NCBI GenBank assembly: GCA_020853775.1
Contig: JADYYH010000016.1
Coordinates: 1-58,737, forward strand
DNA: 58,737 nucleotides
Source of the DNA: Nitrospira sp.
GTDB taxonomy: Bacteria > Nitrospirota > Nitrospiria > Nitrospirales > Nitrospiraceae
Reading direction: 5' to 3'
Within the stretch, counting starts at the first letter, position 1. Each line of letters opens with the position of its first letter. Both the position numbers and the translations under genes were made by a program. This document shows positions 5,793 through 49,585 of this stretch, one piece after another. The notes below the pieces were generated by a model, which was not told the DNA's origin, ran no database searches, and worked only from the letters and a program-made list of their open reading frames with translations.

Positions 5793-6068
5793 ATGCCCTG
5801 GTTTCGCCTCGCCTTCCGCCCCGATGTGATCACCGACCTGCGTGCTGCCGATCCCGCCATGGCGCAACGGTTGTTCGACAAAACCAAATGGCTGGCGTCC
5901 AATGTGGAAAATTTGCGCCATGAACCGGTGGCGTCCGATTTGCCCGGCATCCATAAATATGCCGTAGGTGATTGGCGCATCTTTTACTCCATCGACCGGG
6001 CGGAGCAGTTGGTGGACATTCACTATATTCAGCACCGGCCGCCCGCAGGCCGGGCATCCGGAGCCTGA
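5793..6068 (+). CDS. RelE/ParE-family toxin
   Basis: 91 residues starting MPWFRLAFRPDVITDLRAAD. It has the RelE/ParE fold signature: an early AxxDLR-type helix, then LPGIHKYAVGDWRIFYSID, which carries the basic and tyrosine residues of the beta-sheet, and a final HYIQHRP strand. RelE-type members are ribosome-dependent mRNA interferases, ParE-type members attack gyrase; the YxVGDWRIFYxI pattern fits the RelE side better. The ATG follows the antitoxin stop by one base. C-terminal residues RPPAGRASGA are a little longer than usual. Confidence 0.8.
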   Translation: MPWFRLAFRPDVITDLRAADPAMAQRLFDKTKWLASNVENLRHEPVASDLPGIHKYAVGDWRIFYSIDRAEQLVDIHYIQHRPPAGRASGA

Positions 6069-6070
6069 CG

Positions 6071-6379
6071 ATGCTCACACTCACACCGAAGGCTGTCGAT
6101 CGCCTGCGGGCCTTGTTGCTGGAACATCCGGAAGATCCGGTCGTGCGGATTGCCGTGCGCGATGTGAACGCGCAACGTCTGTCCTTCTCGATTACGTTAG
6201 AAGAGGCGGCTCGCGAAGCGGATGTGGTTGAACGGATCGAAGGACTGACGATTGCGTTGGACCGGTCGAGCGCGCACCGGACGAGCGGGATGACCGTGGA
6301 CTTTCAGGCAGGCAAGGGCTTCCTGTTCGCGCATCCGCCGGCTGATGAGTTGGGGTTGATCATGCCCAGCAGCAACTAG
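6071..6379 (+). CDS. HesB/IscA-like protein without cysteine ligands
   Basis: 102 residues. It starts LTLTPKAVDRLRALLLEHP, the usual first helix of HesB/IscA A-type Fe-S carriers. Near residue 80 it has TVDFQAGKGFLFAHPP, matching the family's IDYVEG...GFKFxNPN strand. A-type carriers need one cysteine after strand 2 and a C-terminal CGCG; this protein contains no cysteine at all, so it cannot bind a cluster in the usual way. It starts 2 bases after the toxin stop and may be co-transcribed with the toxin-antitoxin pair. It may be a structural homologue with another role. A TIR repeat begins one base after its TAG stop. Confidence 0.65.
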   Translation: MLTLTPKAVDRLRALLLEHPEDPVVRIAVRDVNAQRLSFSITLEEAAREADVVERIEGLTIALDRSSAHRTSGMTVDFQAGKGFLFAHPPADELGLIMPSSN

Positions 6380-6380
6380 T

Positions 6381-6501
6381 CAGGATGTTGAAAAAGGCCG
6401 CCAGCGGCGTTCTCGCGTCGCGCAGAGACTCAACGTACTGGCAAGTACGCTTCGCCTCCGCGCTCGCTACGGCCTTGCCGGACGACCTTTTGACCATCCT
6501 G
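6381..6501 (+). repeat. TIR hairpin repeat, copy 1
   Basis: 121 bases with terminal inverted repeats: CAGGATGTTGAAAAAGG at the left and CCTTTTGACCATCCTG at the right. Inside are GCCGC-CA-GCGGC and a perfect CGTACT-GGCA-AGTACG hairpin. Related copies lie at 12094-12216 and 49352-49475. This copy starts one base after the TAG of the HesB-like gene and sits between convergent genes. It could act as a terminator or a 3'-end stabiliser, or be a non-autonomous mobile element. No transposase is nearby. Confidence 0.85.
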
Positions 6502-8519: not shown

Positions 8520-10046
8520 ATGAACGCGTCTCACGCGCCCCTCGAAGAACTGCAGCCGGAGCAGGATCTCTCCCTTTCGCGCCTGATCATCGTCTCGAAC
8601 CGCGAGCCCTACGAACATCGGCTGGTGAAGGATCATTTGATTTGGGAGCGCACGTCGGGGGGACTCATTTCGGCGCTCGACCCGATGATGCGGCGGCTGG
8701 GCGGCACGTGGATCGCGTGGGGCAGCGGCAAGGCCGATCGGGATGTAGTGGATGAGGAGATGGTCGTCGAAGTCCCTCCCGATGCTCCGACCTATCGCCT
8801 GCGCCGCGTATGGCTCGAAAATGGAGAGGTGAAGGGCGGGTATCAAGGATACGCGAACCAGGTCCTCTGGCCGCTCTGCCACCTCACCTTGGACCGGGTC
8901 GCCTACCGGAAAGCCTTCTGGCATGCCTATCAGGCGATGAACGCACGCTTTGCGGATGTGGTCCTCAGTGAGCTTGCTGAAAAACCGGGATTCGTCTGGG
9001 TGCACGATTTTCATCTCGCCCTGCTCCCCGGTCTTATCAAGGCCTCCCTTCCCAATCAGCCGGTCGCGGTCTTCTGGCATACGCCCTGGCCCGGTCCGGA
9101 TGCATTTCGCATCCTGCCCGAACGAAGAGAAATCCTGGAATCTCTGCTGGCCGCCGACCTGGTCATGTTCCAGACGCACAGTTTTCTCCACTGTTTTCTT
9201 GAATGCGCCAAGGAGTTTCTCGACACGGAGATCCTGCCCGACGACCATCACATCGAATCTAAGGGCCACCGCACCAGATTGGTGGTTCGCCCCATCAGCA
9301 TCAGCTATCAGGCCTGGGCCGAACGGGCACAATCACCGCAAGTCACGCGCGCCATGGACGTGCTGCGTAATCTGCACATCTTTCAACCGACGATACGTAT
9401 CGGGCTGGGCGTCGATCGACTCGACTACACCAAAGGCCTCCTGAAACGGTTGTGGGCCATCGAGGCGTTTTTCCAGCAGTACCCGCAGTACCGCGGCCAG
9501 TTCACCTTTATCCAGATCGCCGTGCCGACGCGCGGCGATGTCGAAGCCTATCGCAGCTATCGCGAACTCATCCGCGAAACCGTCAACGAGATCAACATGC
9601 GGTATGGCACGATTTCTCACCCCGGCAGCCCGCAGGCCTCGCGCTGGCGGCCGATCGAATTTCGCGAAGGGCGCATCGGGATGGACACGCTGGCGGCCTA
9701 TTACCGCATGGCCGATCTGGCGTTGGTGAGTTCGGTCTACGATGGCATGAACCTGGTGGCAAAGGAGTATGTCGCGAGCCAGATTGAAGAGAAGGGCGTG
9801 TTGCTGGTGAGCCATCTGGCGGGGGCGGCAGACGAAATGACCGATGCCCTGGTGATCAACCCCTACGACCCGGAAGGGGTCGCCGATTCCATCCGTCAGG
9901 CGCTGGAGATGCCGTTGGGCGAGCGCCGTGACCGGATGCGACGCATGCGCGCCTATCTGGAAGCGCATGACATTCGCGCCTGGGCCGATGACTGCCTGCG
10001 CGACGCGGGAATCCTTCCGCATCAGGACAGCCCTGCCCTTGGATAA
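8520..10046 (+). CDS. otsA: GT20 glycosyltransferase: trehalose-6-phosphate synthase family
   Basis: 508 residues of glycosyltransferase family 20, which joins a UDP- or ADP-activated glucose to a phosphorylated acceptor. It starts SRLIIVSNREPYEHR and has TSGGLISALDPMM, WVHDFHLALLPG, FWHTPWPGPDAFRILPER and, near the C-terminus, the sugar-nucleotide region DGMNLVAKEYVASQ. These cover the donor and acceptor sites of OtsA. Differences from E. coli OtsA include PISISYQAW where PIGID is usual. No phosphatase (OtsB) gene is adjacent, so the related glucosylglycerol-phosphate synthase activity remains possible. The expected role is compatible-solute synthesis under osmotic stress. The start follows the promoter at leaderless spacing. 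Confidence 0.82.
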   Translation: MNASHAPLEELQPEQDLSLSRLIIVSNREPYEHRLVKDHLIWERTSGGLISALDPMMRRLGGTWIAWGSGKADRDVVDEEMVVEVPPDAPTYRLRRVWLENGEVKGGYQGYANQVLWPLCHLTLDRVAYRKAFWHAYQAMNARFADVVLSELAEKPGFVWVHDFHLALLPGLIKASLPNQPVAVFWHTPWPGPDAFRILPERREILESLLAADLVMFQTHSFLHCFLECAKEFLDTEILPDDHHIESKGHRTRLVVRPISISYQAWAERAQSPQVTRAMDVLRNLHIFQPTIRIGLGVDRLDYTKGLLKRLWAIEAFFQQYPQYRGQFTFIQIAVPTRGDVEAYRSYRELIRETVNEINMRYGTISHPGSPQASRWRPIEFREGRIGMDTLAAYYRMADLALVSSVYDGMNLVAKEYVASQIEEKGVLLVSHLAGAADEMTDALVINPYDPEGVADSIRQALEMPLGERRDRMRRMRAYLEAHDIRAWADDCLRDAGILPHQDSPALG

Positions 10047-10071
10047 CCGACGCGAGTTCGCAACCATCGGT

Positions 10072-12093
10072 TTGCAGTGCTTCCGCCGGAAACTCCCACT
10101 CTTCCTGCTTCTCAGCTGCTGCACACTCCTGAGCGGCTGCGCACAGCTGTCCAAACTATTCGCCGTCACGCCGCCGGTAGACCAACAGGTGGATCGACAA
10201 CAACAGGCGATGGTGGCTCAACTGGCCCCCCTTATCGAGGCCGAACTGCAGGACAATCTCAACGTCATGCTTCCCGCAGTTCGCAAGGGCCTGGCCAATC
10301 AGACGAATAAGGCGGCCAAATTCAAGGGCGATCTCGTCCTACACGCGCTGGCTGATCCCTGGCAGGGCCTGACGACGATCGAACAGACCGGCCTCTTAGC
10401 CGCGACTGCCGCCGAATCGGGAGTTGAGGAACTGCCCGCCGTCATCGAAATTCTGGAAGAAGGGATGGATCGACACGGCGCACCGTTCAAGCCGCTCAAC
10501 TTCCCGATCACCCTGGCGCCGGAGGATCTTCTCGGATTCATGATGGAAGCGCTTGAAGATGCCCATCAGGACCGCGAACAGGCGCTCCGCCACCTGTCGC
10601 CACAGGATCGGGACTTTCTCTTCACCCAGGCGCGCCCGTTGGCGGAACACTTCATTCCGCACATTACGCCGCCGACCGGGTTGGCGGAAGCGGAAGCGGC
10701 CGGCCGCTATGCGACGTTGCTCATACAGCAGGTGGATTATGCGCCGCTCATTGCCGCCGCGCAGCGATTGGCCCGGCTGGGCAACCGGAAATTTTTGCAA
10801 CAATTAGACATCGCGCTTCACCATCGAAAGCCGATTACGCAGGCGGTTTCCGGCATAACGGGCGATCTGCTCCTCGTTCAGCAGACCTCCTACGGCCTGC
10901 TCGTGATCGGCGGCCATGGCCCCAATACGTATGACCTCGACAAAGGCGCCGCGCTCATCATCGACCTCGGCGGCAACGACACCTATCGAGGACTCATCGG
11001 CGCAAGCCCGAACAGCGACCTCGGCAACAGTGTGGTGATCGACCTGAGCGGCAACGATCTCTATCAGCCCGCCGCGCTCGGATTGGCCACAGGGCGCGCC
11101 GGCATCGGCATCGTCATCGACCACAGTGGAGACGATACCTACCAGTTAGCGCTTGGTTCCGGAGGGGTCGGCTTTGCAGGGCTCGGGATCCTGTATGATG
11201 GAGAAGGACAGGATGTGTACGAAGGAACCCGGTTTACTCAAGGCGCGGCCTTCGGCGGATTCGGTCTCCTGCTGGACCGCGCCGGCGACGATCGGTATAC
11301 GAGTTTCGGGTACGCGCTGGGCTTCGGCGGGCCGTTGGGTGTGGGCGCCCTCATCGATGTGTCCGGCAATGACTCCTATGAATGCGGGGGAAAATATCCC
11401 AGCGCCTACAATGACACAGATGCGCCGCATGCCCGACCGCAGGATCCGGGCTTTCAATACGATTGTTTCGGGCTCGGTACCGGCGCGGGGCTCCGCGTCT
11501 TCAGCAAACAGTCGGCGCACCGGGCTCAGAGTCTGGCCGGTGGATGGGGTCTGCTGATCGATCTGGCGGGTCGGGATCGTTATCGCAGCGCAAACTTTTC
11601 ACAAGGGCACGGGTACTTTTTCGGGCTTGGCGTGAAACTCGATCTGGCCGGCGATGACGAACACCAGTCAGCGCGGTACGGCGTGGGAACAGCCGCCCAT
11701 TTCGGCGTCGGCCTGAGCCTGGACTATCAGGGGAAGGATCGGTACGGATCCAAGGGACCGTTCTACAACGGCGGCACAGCCTGGGATGGCAGCGTCGCCC
11801 TGGCCGTGGATGGTGGTCCGGACAGCGACTTCTATGACCTGCCCACCTCGACCGGCCTGGGGATGGCGGATCTTGGCGGCTGGGGTCTGTTCATTGAAGA
11901 AGGCGGCGCCGATCAGTACTTCGTCGGTCGAGGATTAGGTCAGGGCGCGGACACGAGCATCGGCGCATTTTTCGACCTGGAGGGCAGAGACGACTATTCT
12001 GCCGTTCCACTTCGAAACGGAGAGGCGCGACCGGAACGGTTGAATCGCAAAACCTATATCGAAAATCAGGGTAGCCTCTTCATCGACCGATAG
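10072..12093 (+). CDS. predicted lipoprotein built of twelve D-x-G-x-D-x-Y repeats
   Basis: About 673 residues. The N-terminus reads LPLFLLLSCCTLLSGC, a signal peptide with lipobox LSGC, so it is probably anchored in a membrane. The start is uncertain: TTG 10072 gives a normal signal peptide, and TTG 10039, overlapping the GT20 stop, is another choice. Residues 20-290 are helical. From about position 10945 to 12040 there are twelve imperfect repeats of about 26 residues with the pattern GhhhDxxGxDxY followed by glycine-rich turns, for example IDLSGNDLY and IDHSGDDTY. Such repeats suggest a beta-solenoid, possibly calcium-binding through the aspartates. I do not recognise a named family. It may be cotranscribed with the GT20 gene. 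The TIR repeat starts right after its TAG. Confidence 0.75.
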   Translation: MQCFRRKLPLFLLLSCCTLLSGCAQLSKLFAVTPPVDQQVDRQQQAMVAQLAPLIEAELQDNLNVMLPAVRKGLANQTNKAAKFKGDLVLHALADPWQGLTTIEQTGLLAATAAESGVEELPAVIEILEEGMDRHGAPFKPLNFPITLAPEDLLGFMMEALEDAHQDREQALRHLSPQDRDFLFTQARPLAEHFIPHITPPTGLAEAEAAGRYATLLIQQVDYAPLIAAAQRLARLGNRKFLQQLDIALHHRKPITQAVSGITGDLLLVQQTSYGLLVIGGHGPNTYDLDKGAALIIDLGGNDTYRGLIGASPNSDLGNSVVIDLSGNDLYQPAALGLATGRAGIGIVIDHSGDDTYQLALGSGGVGFAGLGILYDGEGQDVYEGTRFTQGAAFGGFGLLLDRAGDDRYTSFGYALGFGGPLGVGALIDVSGNDSYECGGKYPSAYNDTDAPHARPQDPGFQYDCFGLGTGAGLRVFSKQSAHRAQSLAGGWGLLIDLAGRDRYRSANFSQGHGYFFGLGVKLDLAGDDEHQSARYGVGTAAHFGVGLSLDYQGKDRYGSKGPFYNGGTAWDGSVALAVDGGPDSDFYDLPTSTGLGMADLGGWGLFIEEGGADQYFVGRGLGQGADTSIGAFFDLEGRDDYSAVPLRNGEARPERLNRKTYIENQGSLFIDR

Positions 12094-12216
12094 CAGGATG
12101 GTGAAAAAGACCGCCGGCGTTGTCCTCGCATCCCGCAGAAGCTCAACGTACCGCAAGGCTACGCTTCGCCTCTTTCCTCGCTGCGGCCTCGCTGGACGGC
12201 CTTTTTGACCACCCTG
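12094..12216 (+). repeat. TIR hairpin repeat, copy 2
   Basis: 123 bases beginning directly after the TAG stop at 12091-12093. Left end CAGGATGGTGAAAAAG, right end CTTTTTGACCACCCTG; the ends pair almost perfectly. The centre holds CGTACC-GCAA-GG-C-TACG, the same hairpin position as copy 1 with changed bases. It lies between two genes on the same strand (repeat lipoprotein and lon), so here it could separate transcription units. Confidence 0.85.
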
Positions 12217-12273
12217 CAGGCTCGCTCCGCATTGCGTCCGGCCCGTGAGCGCTCCCCCTTTCCTGACCTGCGC

Positions 12274-12301
12274 TTGACTCACTCCGCCTTGTGGCTATCT
12301 T
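12274..12301 (+). promoter_or_regulatory. predicted lon promoter
   Basis: TTGACT (12274-12279), 16 bases, TATCTT (12296-12301). The leader to the lon ATG would be about 80 bases. No heat-shock sigma-32 consensus was seen. Confidence 0.45.
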
Positions 12302-12387
12302 AACCGGTAAGAACGGGCGTGACCCTGTCTTCTGTCCCGGTCGCGCTGCTCTCACCCGATGACCATCCGAGCACAGCGGAGGATAAT

Positions 12388-14781
12388 ATGACTGATTCGA
12401 ACGGCCCCATACTCACGAACCTGCCGATACTCCCCTTGAAACGCACGGTGCTCTTCCCCGGCACGATGATGCCGTTGACGGTAGGACGCGACCGTTCCAT
12501 CGCGGCCGTTGAAGCAGCGCTCAAAACGGAAGACAAAACCTTGCTGGTCGTGGCGCAACGAGACGCCCAGACCGATCAGCCGACGCTCGAAGACCTGTAC
12601 ACAATCGGGACCAAGGCCGTCATCAAGCAGACGGTTCGAAGCCCGGAAGGTCATTATAATATTTTGATCCAGGGATTGGAGCGGTTCGTACTGCTGAAGC
12701 TGGATCAAGTTGATCCTTATCTGCAGGCGCGGGTGAAGCAATTGCCGGCTCCCAGCGAACGGAGTACGGAGGTCGAAGCGCTGCATCGAGCGATCCTCGA
12801 CATCATCACCGAACTGCCCAAACTGATCCAGACACCGGGAGTGCATGAAGCGGTGGCGGCGCTGGGGACCGAAGAAGACCCGGTGGTGTTGGCGTACCGC
12901 ATCGCCTCGTTGCTGAATCTCACGTTGGACGGCGAACAGCAATTGCTGGAAGCCTCCACCCGTGCGGACCTGTTGCGTGGGCTGTACGCCACGCTGTCGC
13001 GGGAGGTTCAGATTCTTCAGTTGCGAGATAAAATCACCAGCGAAGCCAAGGAAAAACTCGGCAAAACTCAGCGGGAATACCTGCTGCGCGAGCAGCTGAA
13101 GACCATTCAGCAGGAGCTGGGCGAGAGCAACGGCGAAGAAGATGAGGTCGCCGTGCTGCGAAAGAAGATCCAGGAGGCCGACCTTCCTGAACAGGTGAGA
13201 AAAGAAACCGATCGCGAGTTGACGCGGCTGGCGAAAACGCCCAGCGCCTCGCCGGAGCATCAGGTCATCCGGAGCTATCTGGAGCTGGTGCTCGAGTTGC
13301 CGTGGAATACATCGTCGGAAGAAGGTCTAGACCTCGCGCACGTGCGGAAGGTGTTGAACGAGGATCACTACGGCATCAAGGAAGTGAAGGAACGGATCGT
13401 CGAGCACCTGGCGGTCCTAAAGTTGAACCCTTCTGCCAAAGCGCCGATTCTCTGCCTCGTCGGCCCTCCCGGCGTGGGGAAAACCAGCTTGGGGCAATCC
13501 ATCGCCAAGTCCATGGGTCGGACCTTCGAACGGTTCAGCCTCGGCGGGCTGCATGACGAAGGCGAATTGCGCGGCCACCGCCGCACCTACGTCGGCGCCC
13601 TGCCCGGCCGAATCATCCAAGCCGTGCGGCGAGCCGGCGTGAACAATCCGGTCATCATGCTGGACGAGGTCGATAAGCTAGGCCGCGACTTCCGCGGCGA
13701 TCCCGCGGCGGCCTTGCTGGAGATTCTGGATCCCGCGCAGAACCATACGTTCCGCGACCATTATCTCGATCTGCCGTTCGACCTGTCGAAGGTGTTTTTC
13801 ATCACGACGGCCAATACGCTGGAGACGCTGTCGCAGCCGTTGCTCGATCGTATGGAAATCATCCGTCTGAACGGCTATAGCGAACGCGAAAAACGCGAGA
13901 TCGCTCTGCGGTATCTCTGGCCGAGACGGCTGAAAGAAGCCGGTCTGAAGGCAGAAGACGTGACGTTGTCCGACAGCGTGCTCGACCATGTGATCGGCCG
14001 CTACACCAGGGAATCCGGTGTGCGCCAACTGGAGCAGATGTTGGGCCGCATTACGCGAAAAGTGGCGGTCGCCTTTGCCGATCGGCCTGCCGATGCCACG
14101 GCCGCACCGGTGGAGATCACGCAAGCGCTTCTGGACGAATGGCTGGGGCAGGAACGATTCCAGCCGGAAGAGGCGCGCAAGAATCTGCCGGCTGGTGTCG
14201 CTACCGGCATGGCGTGGACGCCGACGGGCGGCGACGTACTGTATATCGAGACGACCCTGCTGCCCGGCAGTCACGAGTTGACGCTCACCGGACAGTTGGG
14301 CGACGTGATGCAGGAATCGGCTCGTGCGGCCCGCAGCTACCTCTGGTCGCATGCGGAAAGCATGGGATTGGATATCTCGCGCTTCAAACGGAACGGGGTT
14401 CACATTCACGTGCCCTCGGGCGCCATTCCCAAAGACGGTCCTTCGGCCGGTATTACGATGGCGACCGCGTTGGCCTCGGCCTATGTCGGCAAACCGGTCC
14501 GGAGCGACACGGCCATGACCGGCGAGATCAGCCTGACAGGGCTGGTGTTACCGGTGGGCGGGATCAAGGAGAAGGTGCTGGCCGCCCATCGAGCCGGCAT
14601 CAAGCGGATCATTCTGCCGAAGGCCAATGAGAAGGACCTGAAAGAGGTGCCACAGGAAGTTCGCGATGAACTGACGGTCATTCCCGTCGAACGGATCGAA
14701 GAAGTCCTGCCGGCGGCTTTCAACCAGGATGCGGCCTCGGCGGAGAAACACGACCCTATGGCGACGTCCAGTGCGTCATAA
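12388..14781 (+). CDS. lon: Lon ATP-dependent protease
   Basis: 797 residues, full length for LonA. The N-terminal substrate-binding domain starts LPILPLKRTVLFPGTMMPL. The AAA+ module has Walker A GPPGVGKT and Walker B VIMLDEVDKLG. The protease domain has the catalytic serine in PKDGPSAG (S686) and the catalytic lysine in GGIKEKVLAAH about 43 residues later. It degrades misfolded and selected regulatory proteins in the cytoplasm. ATG 12388 is chosen because GGAGG lies 5-9 bases upstream and homology begins there. A strong GC hairpin follows the stop. Confidence 0.98.
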   Translation: MTDSNGPILTNLPILPLKRTVLFPGTMMPLTVGRDRSIAAVEAALKTEDKTLLVVAQRDAQTDQPTLEDLYTIGTKAVIKQTVRSPEGHYNILIQGLERFVLLKLDQVDPYLQARVKQLPAPSERSTEVEALHRAILDIITELPKLIQTPGVHEAVAALGTEEDPVVLAYRIASLLNLTLDGEQQLLEASTRADLLRGLYATLSREVQILQLRDKITSEAKEKLGKTQREYLLREQLKTIQQELGESNGEEDEVAVLRKKIQEADLPEQVRKETDRELTRLAKTPSASPEHQVIRSYLELVLELPWNTSSEEGLDLAHVRKVLNEDHYGIKEVKERIVEHLAVLKLNPSAKAPILCLVGPPGVGKTSLGQSIAKSMGRTFERFSLGGLHDEGELRGHRRTYVGALPGRIIQAVRRAGVNNPVIMLDEVDKLGRDFRGDPAAALLEILDPAQNHTFRDHYLDLPFDLSKVFFITTANTLETLSQPLLDRMEIIRLNGYSEREKREIALRYLWPRRLKEAGLKAEDVTLSDSVLDHVIGRYTRESGVRQLEQMLGRITRKVAVAFADRPADATAAPVEITQALLDEWLGQERFQPEEARKNLPAGVATGMAWTPTGGDVLYIETTLLPGSHELTLTGQLGDVMQESARAARSYLWSHAESMGLDISRFKRNGVHIHVPSGAIPKDGPSAGITMATALASAYVGKPVRSDTAMTGEISLTGLVLPVGGIKEKVLAAHRAGIKRIILPKANEKDLKEVPQEVRDELTVIPVERIEEVLPAAFNQDAASAEKHDPMATSSAS

Positions 14782-47919: not shown

Positions 47920-48669
47920 ATGGCATCCCAGCTTTCTCGCGCCCCAGACGCCGTTTCTGGACCAGCATTCCGGGTCTTGCTAGCCGATGACTCGCAAGAA
48001 TCACAGGTCTTGATTCGATTGTACCTGCAAGGCCTCCCCTATCAGGTTGACGTCGCAGGAGACGGAGAAGAAGCGGTCGCCCTGTTCAAGGCCCGGCCGT
48101 TTGACCTCATTTTTCTCGATCAGCACATGCCGGTCATGGACGGTTTTACCGCCGCGCGCCTGATGCGCCAGTGGGAATCATCCAATCATCGGTCGCCGGT
48201 ACCTATTCTGGCTCTGACCGCCGACTCATTGGTCGAAGCCAGGGAGCAGGGGCAAGCTGCAGGGTGCACGGCATTCTTAGCCAAGCCCATCGCTAAAGAA
48301 CAGCTTCTCGACGCGTTGCAGAGGTTTGGCGCCAGCTTCTCAAAGCAGCGCGCTACGACACAGAACAGTGCCCCCGCCGGACTCGCAACCCTCATCGACG
48401 AGGAAATCGCACGACGGCGTCCCCTCTTCCTCGACAACCGCCGTCGAGAGCTGAGACGCCTGCAGAATGCCGTCGAGCGAGGAGATTGCGAATTCATCCG
48501 GATCACGGGACACCGCCTCAAAGGCCTGGCCGGATCATATGGGTTCCCCGACATCGGTCTGGCGGGTGCAGAGTTAGAGGAAACGGCGAAGGATCAGGAT
48601 CTCGCCGGGATGCGACGGACCATCGATCAGCTGGCTGCGCTTCTTGCCCAGGCGAGCCAGGCCGTGTAA
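47920..48669 (+). CDS. receiver plus histidine-phosphotransfer (Hpt) protein
   Basis: 249 residues. The receiver (VLLADDSQESQVLIRLYLQG, aspartate in LIFLDQHMPVMDG, lysine in FLAKPIAK) is followed by an Hpt helix bundle with the phospho-histidine in TGHRLKGLAGSYGF. Such proteins carry phosphate between a sensor kinase and an output regulator. No kinase domain is present. ATG 47920. The next regulator gene lies 37 bases downstream. Confidence 0.92.
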   Translation: MASQLSRAPDAVSGPAFRVLLADDSQESQVLIRLYLQGLPYQVDVAGDGEEAVALFKARPFDLIFLDQHMPVMDGFTAARLMRQWESSNHRSPVPILALTADSLVEAREQGQAAGCTAFLAKPIAKEQLLDALQRFGASFSKQRATTQNSAPAGLATLIDEEIARRRPLFLDNRRRELRRLQNAVERGDCEFIRITGHRLKGLAGSYGFPDIGLAGAELEETAKDQDLAGMRRTIDQLAALLAQASQAV

Positions 48670-48706
48670 GCGGAGTTCCGGGACGTGCTATAGGAAACCT
48701 ACGACC

Positions 48707-49351
48707 ATGAGCATTCTCATCATCGACGATTTTCAAGAGGAGCGGGATCTTCTCCACGCCATCCTGCAGCGGGCCGGATTCGGGCCTCTCCTGCCGGTCG
48801 CGACGGCTCAAGAAGGACTCACTCTCTTGGGGATCGGTAAACGCGGAAAACCCGGCAATGGCATCGATCTCGTTCTCATGGATCTCGAAATGCCCGGGAT
48901 GAATGGATTGGAGGCCTGCGAGAGAATCAGGATGGAAGAACCGCTCCAGGGCCTGCCCATCATTATCATTACCGCCCATACGGCAGAGCACGATATTCAG
49001 GCCGCCTATACGGCGGGCGCCACGGACTATATCCGCAAGCCTGTGATTCCGGTGGAGTTGCTGGCGCGAGCCGCCACAGCGCTGAGCCTGAAACAAGAAA
49101 TCGATGCGAGGAAATTGCGCGAACAGGAACTGCTCGAACGAACGAAGGAACTCGACCATGCCTTGGAGCACATCACCACGCGCCATGGCACCGTGCAGAT
49201 CTGCGCCAAGTGTAAACGCGTCAATACCGAAGGATCCTACTGGCAACGGATCGAAGACTACTTACGACGGCTGGGGCGCTCCACGGTCAAAGAAGCCGTC
49301 TGTGACTCCTGCATGGATCAGGCCTATCCTCATCTGAAACGGATGCCGTAG
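48707..49351 (+). CDS. response regulator with C-terminal zinc-like motif
   Basis: 214 residues. The receiver has IIDDFQEERDLLHAILQRAG, phospho-aspartate in LVLMDLEMPGMNG and lysine in YIRKPVIPVEL. A coiled-coil (KLREQELLERTKELDHALEH) leads to a C-terminal part with CAKCKR and CDSCMDQAYP, a CxxC...CxxC unit similar to that found at the end of some PAS/GAF signalling proteins. Output unknown. The TIR repeat copy 3 begins immediately after its TAG. Confidence 0.88.
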   Translation: MSILIIDDFQEERDLLHAILQRAGFGPLLPVATAQEGLTLLGIGKRGKPGNGIDLVLMDLEMPGMNGLEACERIRMEEPLQGLPIIIITAHTAEHDIQAAYTAGATDYIRKPVIPVELLARAATALSLKQEIDARKLREQELLERTKELDHALEHITTRHGTVQICAKCKRVNTEGSYWQRIEDYLRRLGRSTVKEAVCDSCMDQAYPHLKRMP

Positions 49352-49475
49352 CAGGCTGTTCAGACAGGTCGCCAGCGGCGTTCTCGCGGCGCACAGAAGC
49401 TCCCCCTACCGCAGCGAGTACGCTTCGCCTCTGAGCTGGCGGCCGCCTTACCGGACAACCTTTCTGGGCAGCCTG
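49352..49475 (+). repeat. TIR hairpin repeat, copy 3
   Basis: 124 bases directly following the TAG at 49349-49351. Ends CAGGCTGTTCAGACAGG and AACCTTTCTGGGCAGCCTG pair; compared with copies 1 and 2 the change CAGGATG to CAGGCTG is matched by CATCCTG to CAGCCTG, so pairing is conserved. Shares GCCAGCGGCGTTCTCGC and TACGCTTCGCCT with copy 1. The next gene is convergent. Confidence 0.82.
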
Positions 49476-49585
49476 CGAATAATGCTGATTTGTCCACAGG
49501 TGGCCGAGGGCTCTCGCGCAGGATTCTTGAGTAGTGTGTCTATCACCTGCTACCCAGCACTCCATACATCAGACGACCGGGACGG

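Follow-up and report, generated by a model that had tools for sequence, protein, structure and literature searches.

The three related hairpins that follow TAG stop codons in the window (by which we mean the whole stretch of 58,737 nucleotides from Nitrospira sp. analysed here) are, on balance, probably solo or decayed members of a hairpin family of the Nitrospirales that forms the left part of an IS5-family MITE and whose sense copies are retained at mRNA 3' ends. The association of the hairpin with stop codons is real and strong and is largely unexplained; an IS5-type MITE that targets YTAR accounts for its insertion side. Descent from such MITEs is supported at the sequence level for some of the solo copies, and we infer it for the rest.

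Hairpin copies in the window and their orthologous loci

The window carries the following features.

6377-6379, + strand: TAG stop of ORF 5972-6379 (conserved protein from 6065), 1 nt before copy 1
6381-6501, + strand: solo hairpin copy 1, 121 bp, starting 1 nt after the stop; 121 bits with model R1
12091-12093, + strand: TAG stop of ORF 9928-12093, abutting copy 2
12094-12216, + strand: solo hairpin copy 2, 123 bp, starting 0 nt after the stop
12274-12301, + strand: sigma-70-like promoter motif of the next co-directional gene, TTGACT-16-TATCTT
49348-49351, + strand: GTAG, putative left target duplication, the TAG part of which is the stop of ORF 48644-49351
49352-49475, + strand: hairpin copy 3, 124 bp, starting 0 nt after the stop
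49536-49549, + strand: candidate remnant of the MITE right inverted repeat (GTGTCTATCACCTG), 13/18 match to the right end
49550-49553, + strand: CTAC directly after GTGTCTATCACCTG, read as a decayed right duplication

The sequence-only reading of this DNA had described three copies of about 121-124 bases, all in one orientation at gene 3' ends, starting 0-1 base after a TAG and in two cases reading TAGCAGG across the junction, and all of this was borne out: copy 1 starts 1 nt after its stop (ACTAG-T-CAGG), and copies 2 and 3 start at 0 nt (TAG-CAGG). The copies are indeed related, with 79-83% identity over their first 58 nt, and the ends of all three pair, as had also been noticed. Against 200 dinucleotide shuffles, two of the folds were better than every one (z = -3.2 and -4.0), that of copy 1 being unremarkable (z = -1.2, 21 of 200 shuffles as good); strong evidence for the pairing comes from covariation in the family.

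The protein ending at 6379 is found in 29 of 29 genomes of the genus with an unchanged C-terminus, and the 721-aa protein of ORF 9928-12093, conserved in 29 of 29 genomes, has the same end, ...GSLF(I/V/T)DR before the stop, whether or not the hairpin is there. At the window loci generally, relatives without the hairpin have the stop at the same protein end, and the element therefore does not create the gene end. At the 6381 locus, the hairpin or a remnant sits at the same stop in several relatives, and none is present in G009, G024, G019 and others. At the 12094 locus, G009, G002, G001, G007 and G004 have no hairpin at the same stop, and the hairpin is shortened in G018 and eroded in G024; at the 49352 locus it is present in G022 and missing from G009, G024 and G001. 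The stop at the 6381 locus is TAG in all nine genomes with the hairpin or a remnant and TGA or TAA in 13 of the 16 without, the species not being independent in this or the other comparisons within the family; the hairpin may fix the stop as TAG.

In some species a version of ~188 nt, with the same arms and a larger branched centre (GACACTG...GGCGGC...GTTCAC...GTGAAC), occupies orthologous stops (L351, L341 and L342 at the 6381 locus, L308 and L312 at the 12094 locus, and L291:5440-5628), which suggests an exchange of modules inside the palindrome.

A hairpin family of the Nitrospirales

At the DNA level, a search with the hairpin found 41 places in the window's own genome, and a covariance model built from 26 of its full-length copies gave 87 matches there, a few of them antisense shadows or fragments. 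The family, ~123 nt in length, was present in all 41 Nitrospirales genomes searched, with 1 to at least 87 matches each. In the 26-copy alignment, 92.5% of cells are paired as against 81.9% in shuffles, and 82 cells are changed on both sides as against 22.6, values that none of 500 shuffles reached in either case; internal motifs of the hairpin are also conserved. No Rfam family matched up to E = 5 at eight loci including the three window copies, and literature searches with Nitrospira named turned up no earlier description of the element.

Integron attC sites are long imperfect hairpins right after gene stops, whose structure is kept while the sequence varies. The Nitrospira hairpins differ in that their ends lack the RYYYAAC and GTTRRRY core boxes and in that copies are dispersed genome-wide, and identity with attC was rejected on the absence of R''/R' core boxes, the ends being CAGG.TG...CA.CCTG.

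Hairpins also occur in tandem, two or three with a period of ~131 nt and a spacer of 6-7 nt (G024:C1:2715447-2715833, L281; G000:C45:45592-45845, L300), in clusters where consecutive co-directional genes each end in a hairpin. Two weak matches (42-43 bits; L462 and L475) come from Rokuibacteriota and Methylomirabilota MAGs, with arms that are well paired but different; one of the two overlaps a stop codon, and both are possible distant relatives outside the Nitrospirota.

Position and orientation relative to stop codons

A hairpin without a clear right end was classed as solo, the split between solo and intact copies being set by a threshold; most copies in the window genome and in G024, taken here as Ca. 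Nitrospira defluvii (FP929003.1), including the three in the window, have no clear right end. In these two genomes, 78 of 148 solo hairpins lie in sense and start no more than 3 nt from the stop of a coding ORF (called by a simple home-made codon-usage score), and one does so in reverse. Independently of the coding model, 60 of 142 solo copies have a stop triplet ending exactly at their first base, where ~4 are expected per position, and on the reverse side the count is 8 against ~5 expected. The other named genomes have 42 of 83 at a stop in sense and 3 in reverse, and other families of the order 13 of 35 and 1, respectively. The genome-wide scan proposed in the sequence-only reading thus shows sense-strand matches peaking sharply at 0 nt after stops, and both the stop and the strand preference that it had anticipated are found.

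Stops at solo hairpins comprise 49 TAG, 18 TAA and 11 TGA against a baseline of 71, 65 and 92, a TAG share of 63% vs 31%. The base before TAG is C in 18 cases, T in 13, G in 12 and A in 2, so that Y precedes TAG in 31 of 45 (69%) vs 29 of 71 (41%) at baseline. In a comparison by age, from unshared to shared solo copies, no fall was seen in either the TAG excess or the Y preference, although simple drift following insertion should lower both.

An intact MITE and its IS5-family partner

The hairpin is carried as the left end of a ~200-bp MITE. G014 and G024 each contain many near-identical intact copies at unrelated sites, whose identity starts sharply after CTAG, TTAG or CTAA, spans the hairpin and ~76 further bases, and stops at GAGTTTTTCCGCARCCTG, after which the same four bases follow. 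The 63 intact copies from many genomes are 198-203 bp long, and 54 of them have identical 4-bp duplications; the left target site is CTAG in 40, TTAG in 10 and CTAA in 7 (YTAR), YTAR being a known IS5 duplication motif (PMC10359306). The inverted repeats are of IS5 type (left, CAGGATGCGGAAAAAG; right, as reverse complement, CAGGYTGCGGAAAAACTC), and G024 harbors a 1316-bp IS5-family element that has the MITE's ends, CAGGCTGCGGAAAAAC, with TTAG on both sides, and whose product matches Pfam DUF772 and DDE_Tnp_1 as well as NCBIfam transpos_IS5_4 (279 bits, cut-off 140). Three further elements of 1314-1317 bp have CTAG duplications. From the shared ends, the YTAR duplication and the matching IS5-family element, it follows that the long form is a MITE of an IS5-family element. 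The hairpin was not seen in the sequence of the 1316-bp G024 element, and inside the MITE a G-G position of the hairpin is consistently unpaired.

Intact MITEs at stops number 10 in sense and 12 in reverse, and most intact copies lie away from stop codons. Set against these young MITEs (10:12), solo copies are 78:5 sense to reverse, with the reverse counts at 0 and at +74 to +80 taken together (p ~1e-6), and since intact MITEs are unbiased at stops, the sense bias of solo copies does not look like a property of insertion. The earlier suggestion that the element targets or supplies stop codons thus survives in part: the mobile form does target YTAR (CTAG/TTAG/CTAA) and duplicate it, but it has no orientation preference, most of its copies are off stops, and it does not make the gene end. 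The view that the placement is not random insertion stays plausible.

There is no duplication around most solo copies, a right-end remnant above chance is present in ~12 of 142, and the similarity of their right arms to the MITE is at background. Right-arm homology was consequently discarded as proof that all solo copies are MITEs, the right arms being too variable between subfamilies. At copy 3, the candidate right end lies at +74 after the hairpin, which is the expected place, with a YTAR-type site adjoining. The flanks GTAG/CTAC would be a decayed CTAG; the empty site in G009 is CTAG, and the position of the window GTAG reads CTAG in both G009 and G022. By coordinates, the distance from the stop to conserved downstream sequence is ~198 nt longer in the window than in G009, about one MITE length. 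At copies 1 and 2, the right inverted repeat and duplication were absent from the expected place, and the best matches were low and at other distances.

The complete genome G009, with 72 hairpin matches, has no match to transpos_IS5_4 or to a Y1 transposase, and G005, G011, G013 and G036 are similar; G005 (76 hairpins), G011 (68) and G036 have no Y1 transposase. PF01797 (Y1/RAYT) had no match in G002, G003, G005, G009, G011, G013, G021 and G036 (37-82 hairpin matches) and few in some other genomes. Solo copies persist without transpos_IS5_4 and Y1 enzymes (INDEPENDENCE from transposases). Another complete genome, G004, has 2 model matches yet 14 identical IS5-family transposase genes, whose loci have no match to the MITE ends. 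In the window's assembly, the MITE right end was seen within ~200 bases of the start of contigs C49, C55 and C60; recent identical MITE copies probably break this assembly and are thus undercounted there.

Inheritance and compensatory change

The window genome and Ca. N. defluvii share 39 reciprocal orthologous hairpin pairs, 20 of which are stop-adjacent in both; identity is 85% upstream, 84% within the hairpin and 75% over the following 60 bases. Of 468 outer-stem pairs in these orthologues, 47 changed on both sides as against 16 expected if changes were independent, and 24 of the 47 are fully paired in both species. Such coordinated arm change would also result from correction of one arm by the other at replication, or from pairing in DNA. 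Counts of G-T and A-C stem mismatches are similar (74:57 and 95:82; 18:19 after single changes in orthologues), so that selection at the RNA level is not visible, which argues against strong selection on the RNA strand. The antisense strand folds more stably than the sense strand, apparently owing to constant internal positions and not to the variable stems, and folding energy is therefore not evidence for either strand. The idea of a regulatory 3'-end module, also raised in the sequence-only reading, keeps its plausibility.

Gene context

A co-directional gene follows 43 of 76 stop-adjacent copies, and at least 10 lie within 60 nt of its likely start; in apparent operons, copies are separated from the next gene by 15-60 nt. 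By eye, and from start sequences only, the following products begin like UrtE, TrpA, KdsA and PurD. Judged from the sequence, copies before close co-directional genes are probably transcribed within operons. A scan of 12050-12450 found no intrinsic terminator (GC stem plus T run) at copy 2. The T run of the hairpin lies inside its 3' arm, where it pairs with an A run, and in many diverged copies it is down to TTT. The promoter motif 3' of copy 2 is conserved in relatives with and without the hairpin, and also follows the empty site in G009.

Origin and possible function

In the explanation that we favor, namely solo copies left by an IS5-family MITE and retained in sense, a MITE that inserts in a CTAG, TTAG or CTAA stop rebuilds the stop through its duplication and places the hairpin directly after it; young copies do land at stops in either orientation. 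Most solo copies may have begun as such MITEs, and the sense ones would be kept for an action of the transcribed hairpin at the end of the upstream cistron. A terminating ribosome could meet or open the base of the stem, which would alter termination, cleavage or 3'-5' decay of the upstream message as compared with the downstream one. By analogy, the action is likely to be like that of ERIC or stop-proximal REPs. Speaking against this explanation are the lack of a right-end remnant in most solo copies, the TAG and Y preferences that do not weaken from unshared to shared copies, the similar G-T and A-C counts, the better fold of the antisense strand, and the loss or erosion of the hairpin in several lineages at the window loci. 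We put forward more tentatively that these are transposon-seeded 3'-end regulators, the MITE spreading the hairpin to TAG stops, only sense copies being kept, and dozens of stop-abutting hairpins, including those in operons, being maintained within lineages by coordinated arm change and exchange of the centre for a control coupled to translation termination.

That the copies are purely selfish DNA, placed 3' of TAG in a fixed orientation and without duplication by an enzyme of the IS200/IS605 or REP-like single-strand kind, with stops as tolerated TAGs and no host function, seems unlikely. Orientation is fixed relative to TAG, TAG is enriched, most solo copies have no duplication, the G-T and A-C mismatch balance is as expected for pairing at the DNA level, and a supply of TAG stops by GTAG REPs is known (PMC3733652); however, TAA or TGA is frequent at the same spacing, as are stops that overlap the element's first bases, G009, G005, G011 and G036 have no Y1 transposase, and movement of the sister MITE is clearly by the IS5 route. 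We are equally doubtful of an IS5-independent origin, in which the hairpin would be a structured 3'-UTR or intercistronic RNA, inherited vertically and captured later by the MITE as its left end. Solo copies in genera without a transpos_IS5_4 match (G026, G029 and G036), conserved internal motifs, compensatory change in place and the lack of a right end in most copies would all agree with such an origin, whereas CAGG.TG..GAAAAA at the base of the hairpin agrees with the IS5 inverted repeat, solo stops bear a YTAG signature, and copy 3 has both a candidate remnant of the right end and additional DNA of roughly one MITE length.

It is very improbable that an ordinary intrinsic terminator, or a chance hairpin at gene ends, accounts for the copies: a strong GC-rich hairpin at 3' ends is what a terminator would offer, but copy 2 lacks such a site, the T run is paired within the 3' arm, copies precede the next gene by 15-60 nt in apparent operons, and the sequence family is far above chance. 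Insertion of the IS630/TA type was rejected, there being no TA duplication at the hairpin's own ends, as was coding readthrough through the element, since lengths of 121-126 keep no frame.

Relation to known systems and significance

Compared by size, shape and reported behaviour, the hairpin resembles ERIC/IRU, a 127-bp enterobacterial MITE that is an imperfect palindrome, intergenic and co-transcribed; in Yersinia, ERIC is co-transcribed, orientation-dependent and opened by ribosomes (PMC2229807). ERIC ends carry TA, however, whereas the intact Nitrospira form duplicates YTAR via the IS5-family route, and the 0-nt, nearly sense-only stop position of the Nitrospira hairpin is far stricter. 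REP/GTAG (RAYT) elements are likewise extragenic palindromes near gene 3' ends, often supplying TAG stops in the GTAG type (PMC3733652), and ribosome stalling has been reported for E. coli REPs that lie within 15 nt of a stop (cited in PMC12306157). REPs are 20-40 bp long with a conserved GTAG tag, whereas the Nitrospira hairpin measures 123 nt, has no fixed base in front of TAG and also follows TAA and TGA stops; in addition, Y1 transposase is absent from several hairpin-rich Nitrospira genomes. The ~200-bp form, with its IS5-like inverted repeats, YTAR duplication and matching transposase-bearing element of ~1316 bp, is like other IS5-family MITEs, but differs in that its left end is a conserved, covarying 123-nt hairpin that persists alone at stops.

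For the Nitrospira group, one practical consequence is that contigs may end where the intact form has recent identical copies. The element ties a mobile element's target preference, YTAR containing a stop, to a genome-wide and orientation-strict pattern at gene ends, and the presence of young unbiased insertions beside old sense-only survivors amounts to a natural experiment on whether selection favors hairpins at stop codons.
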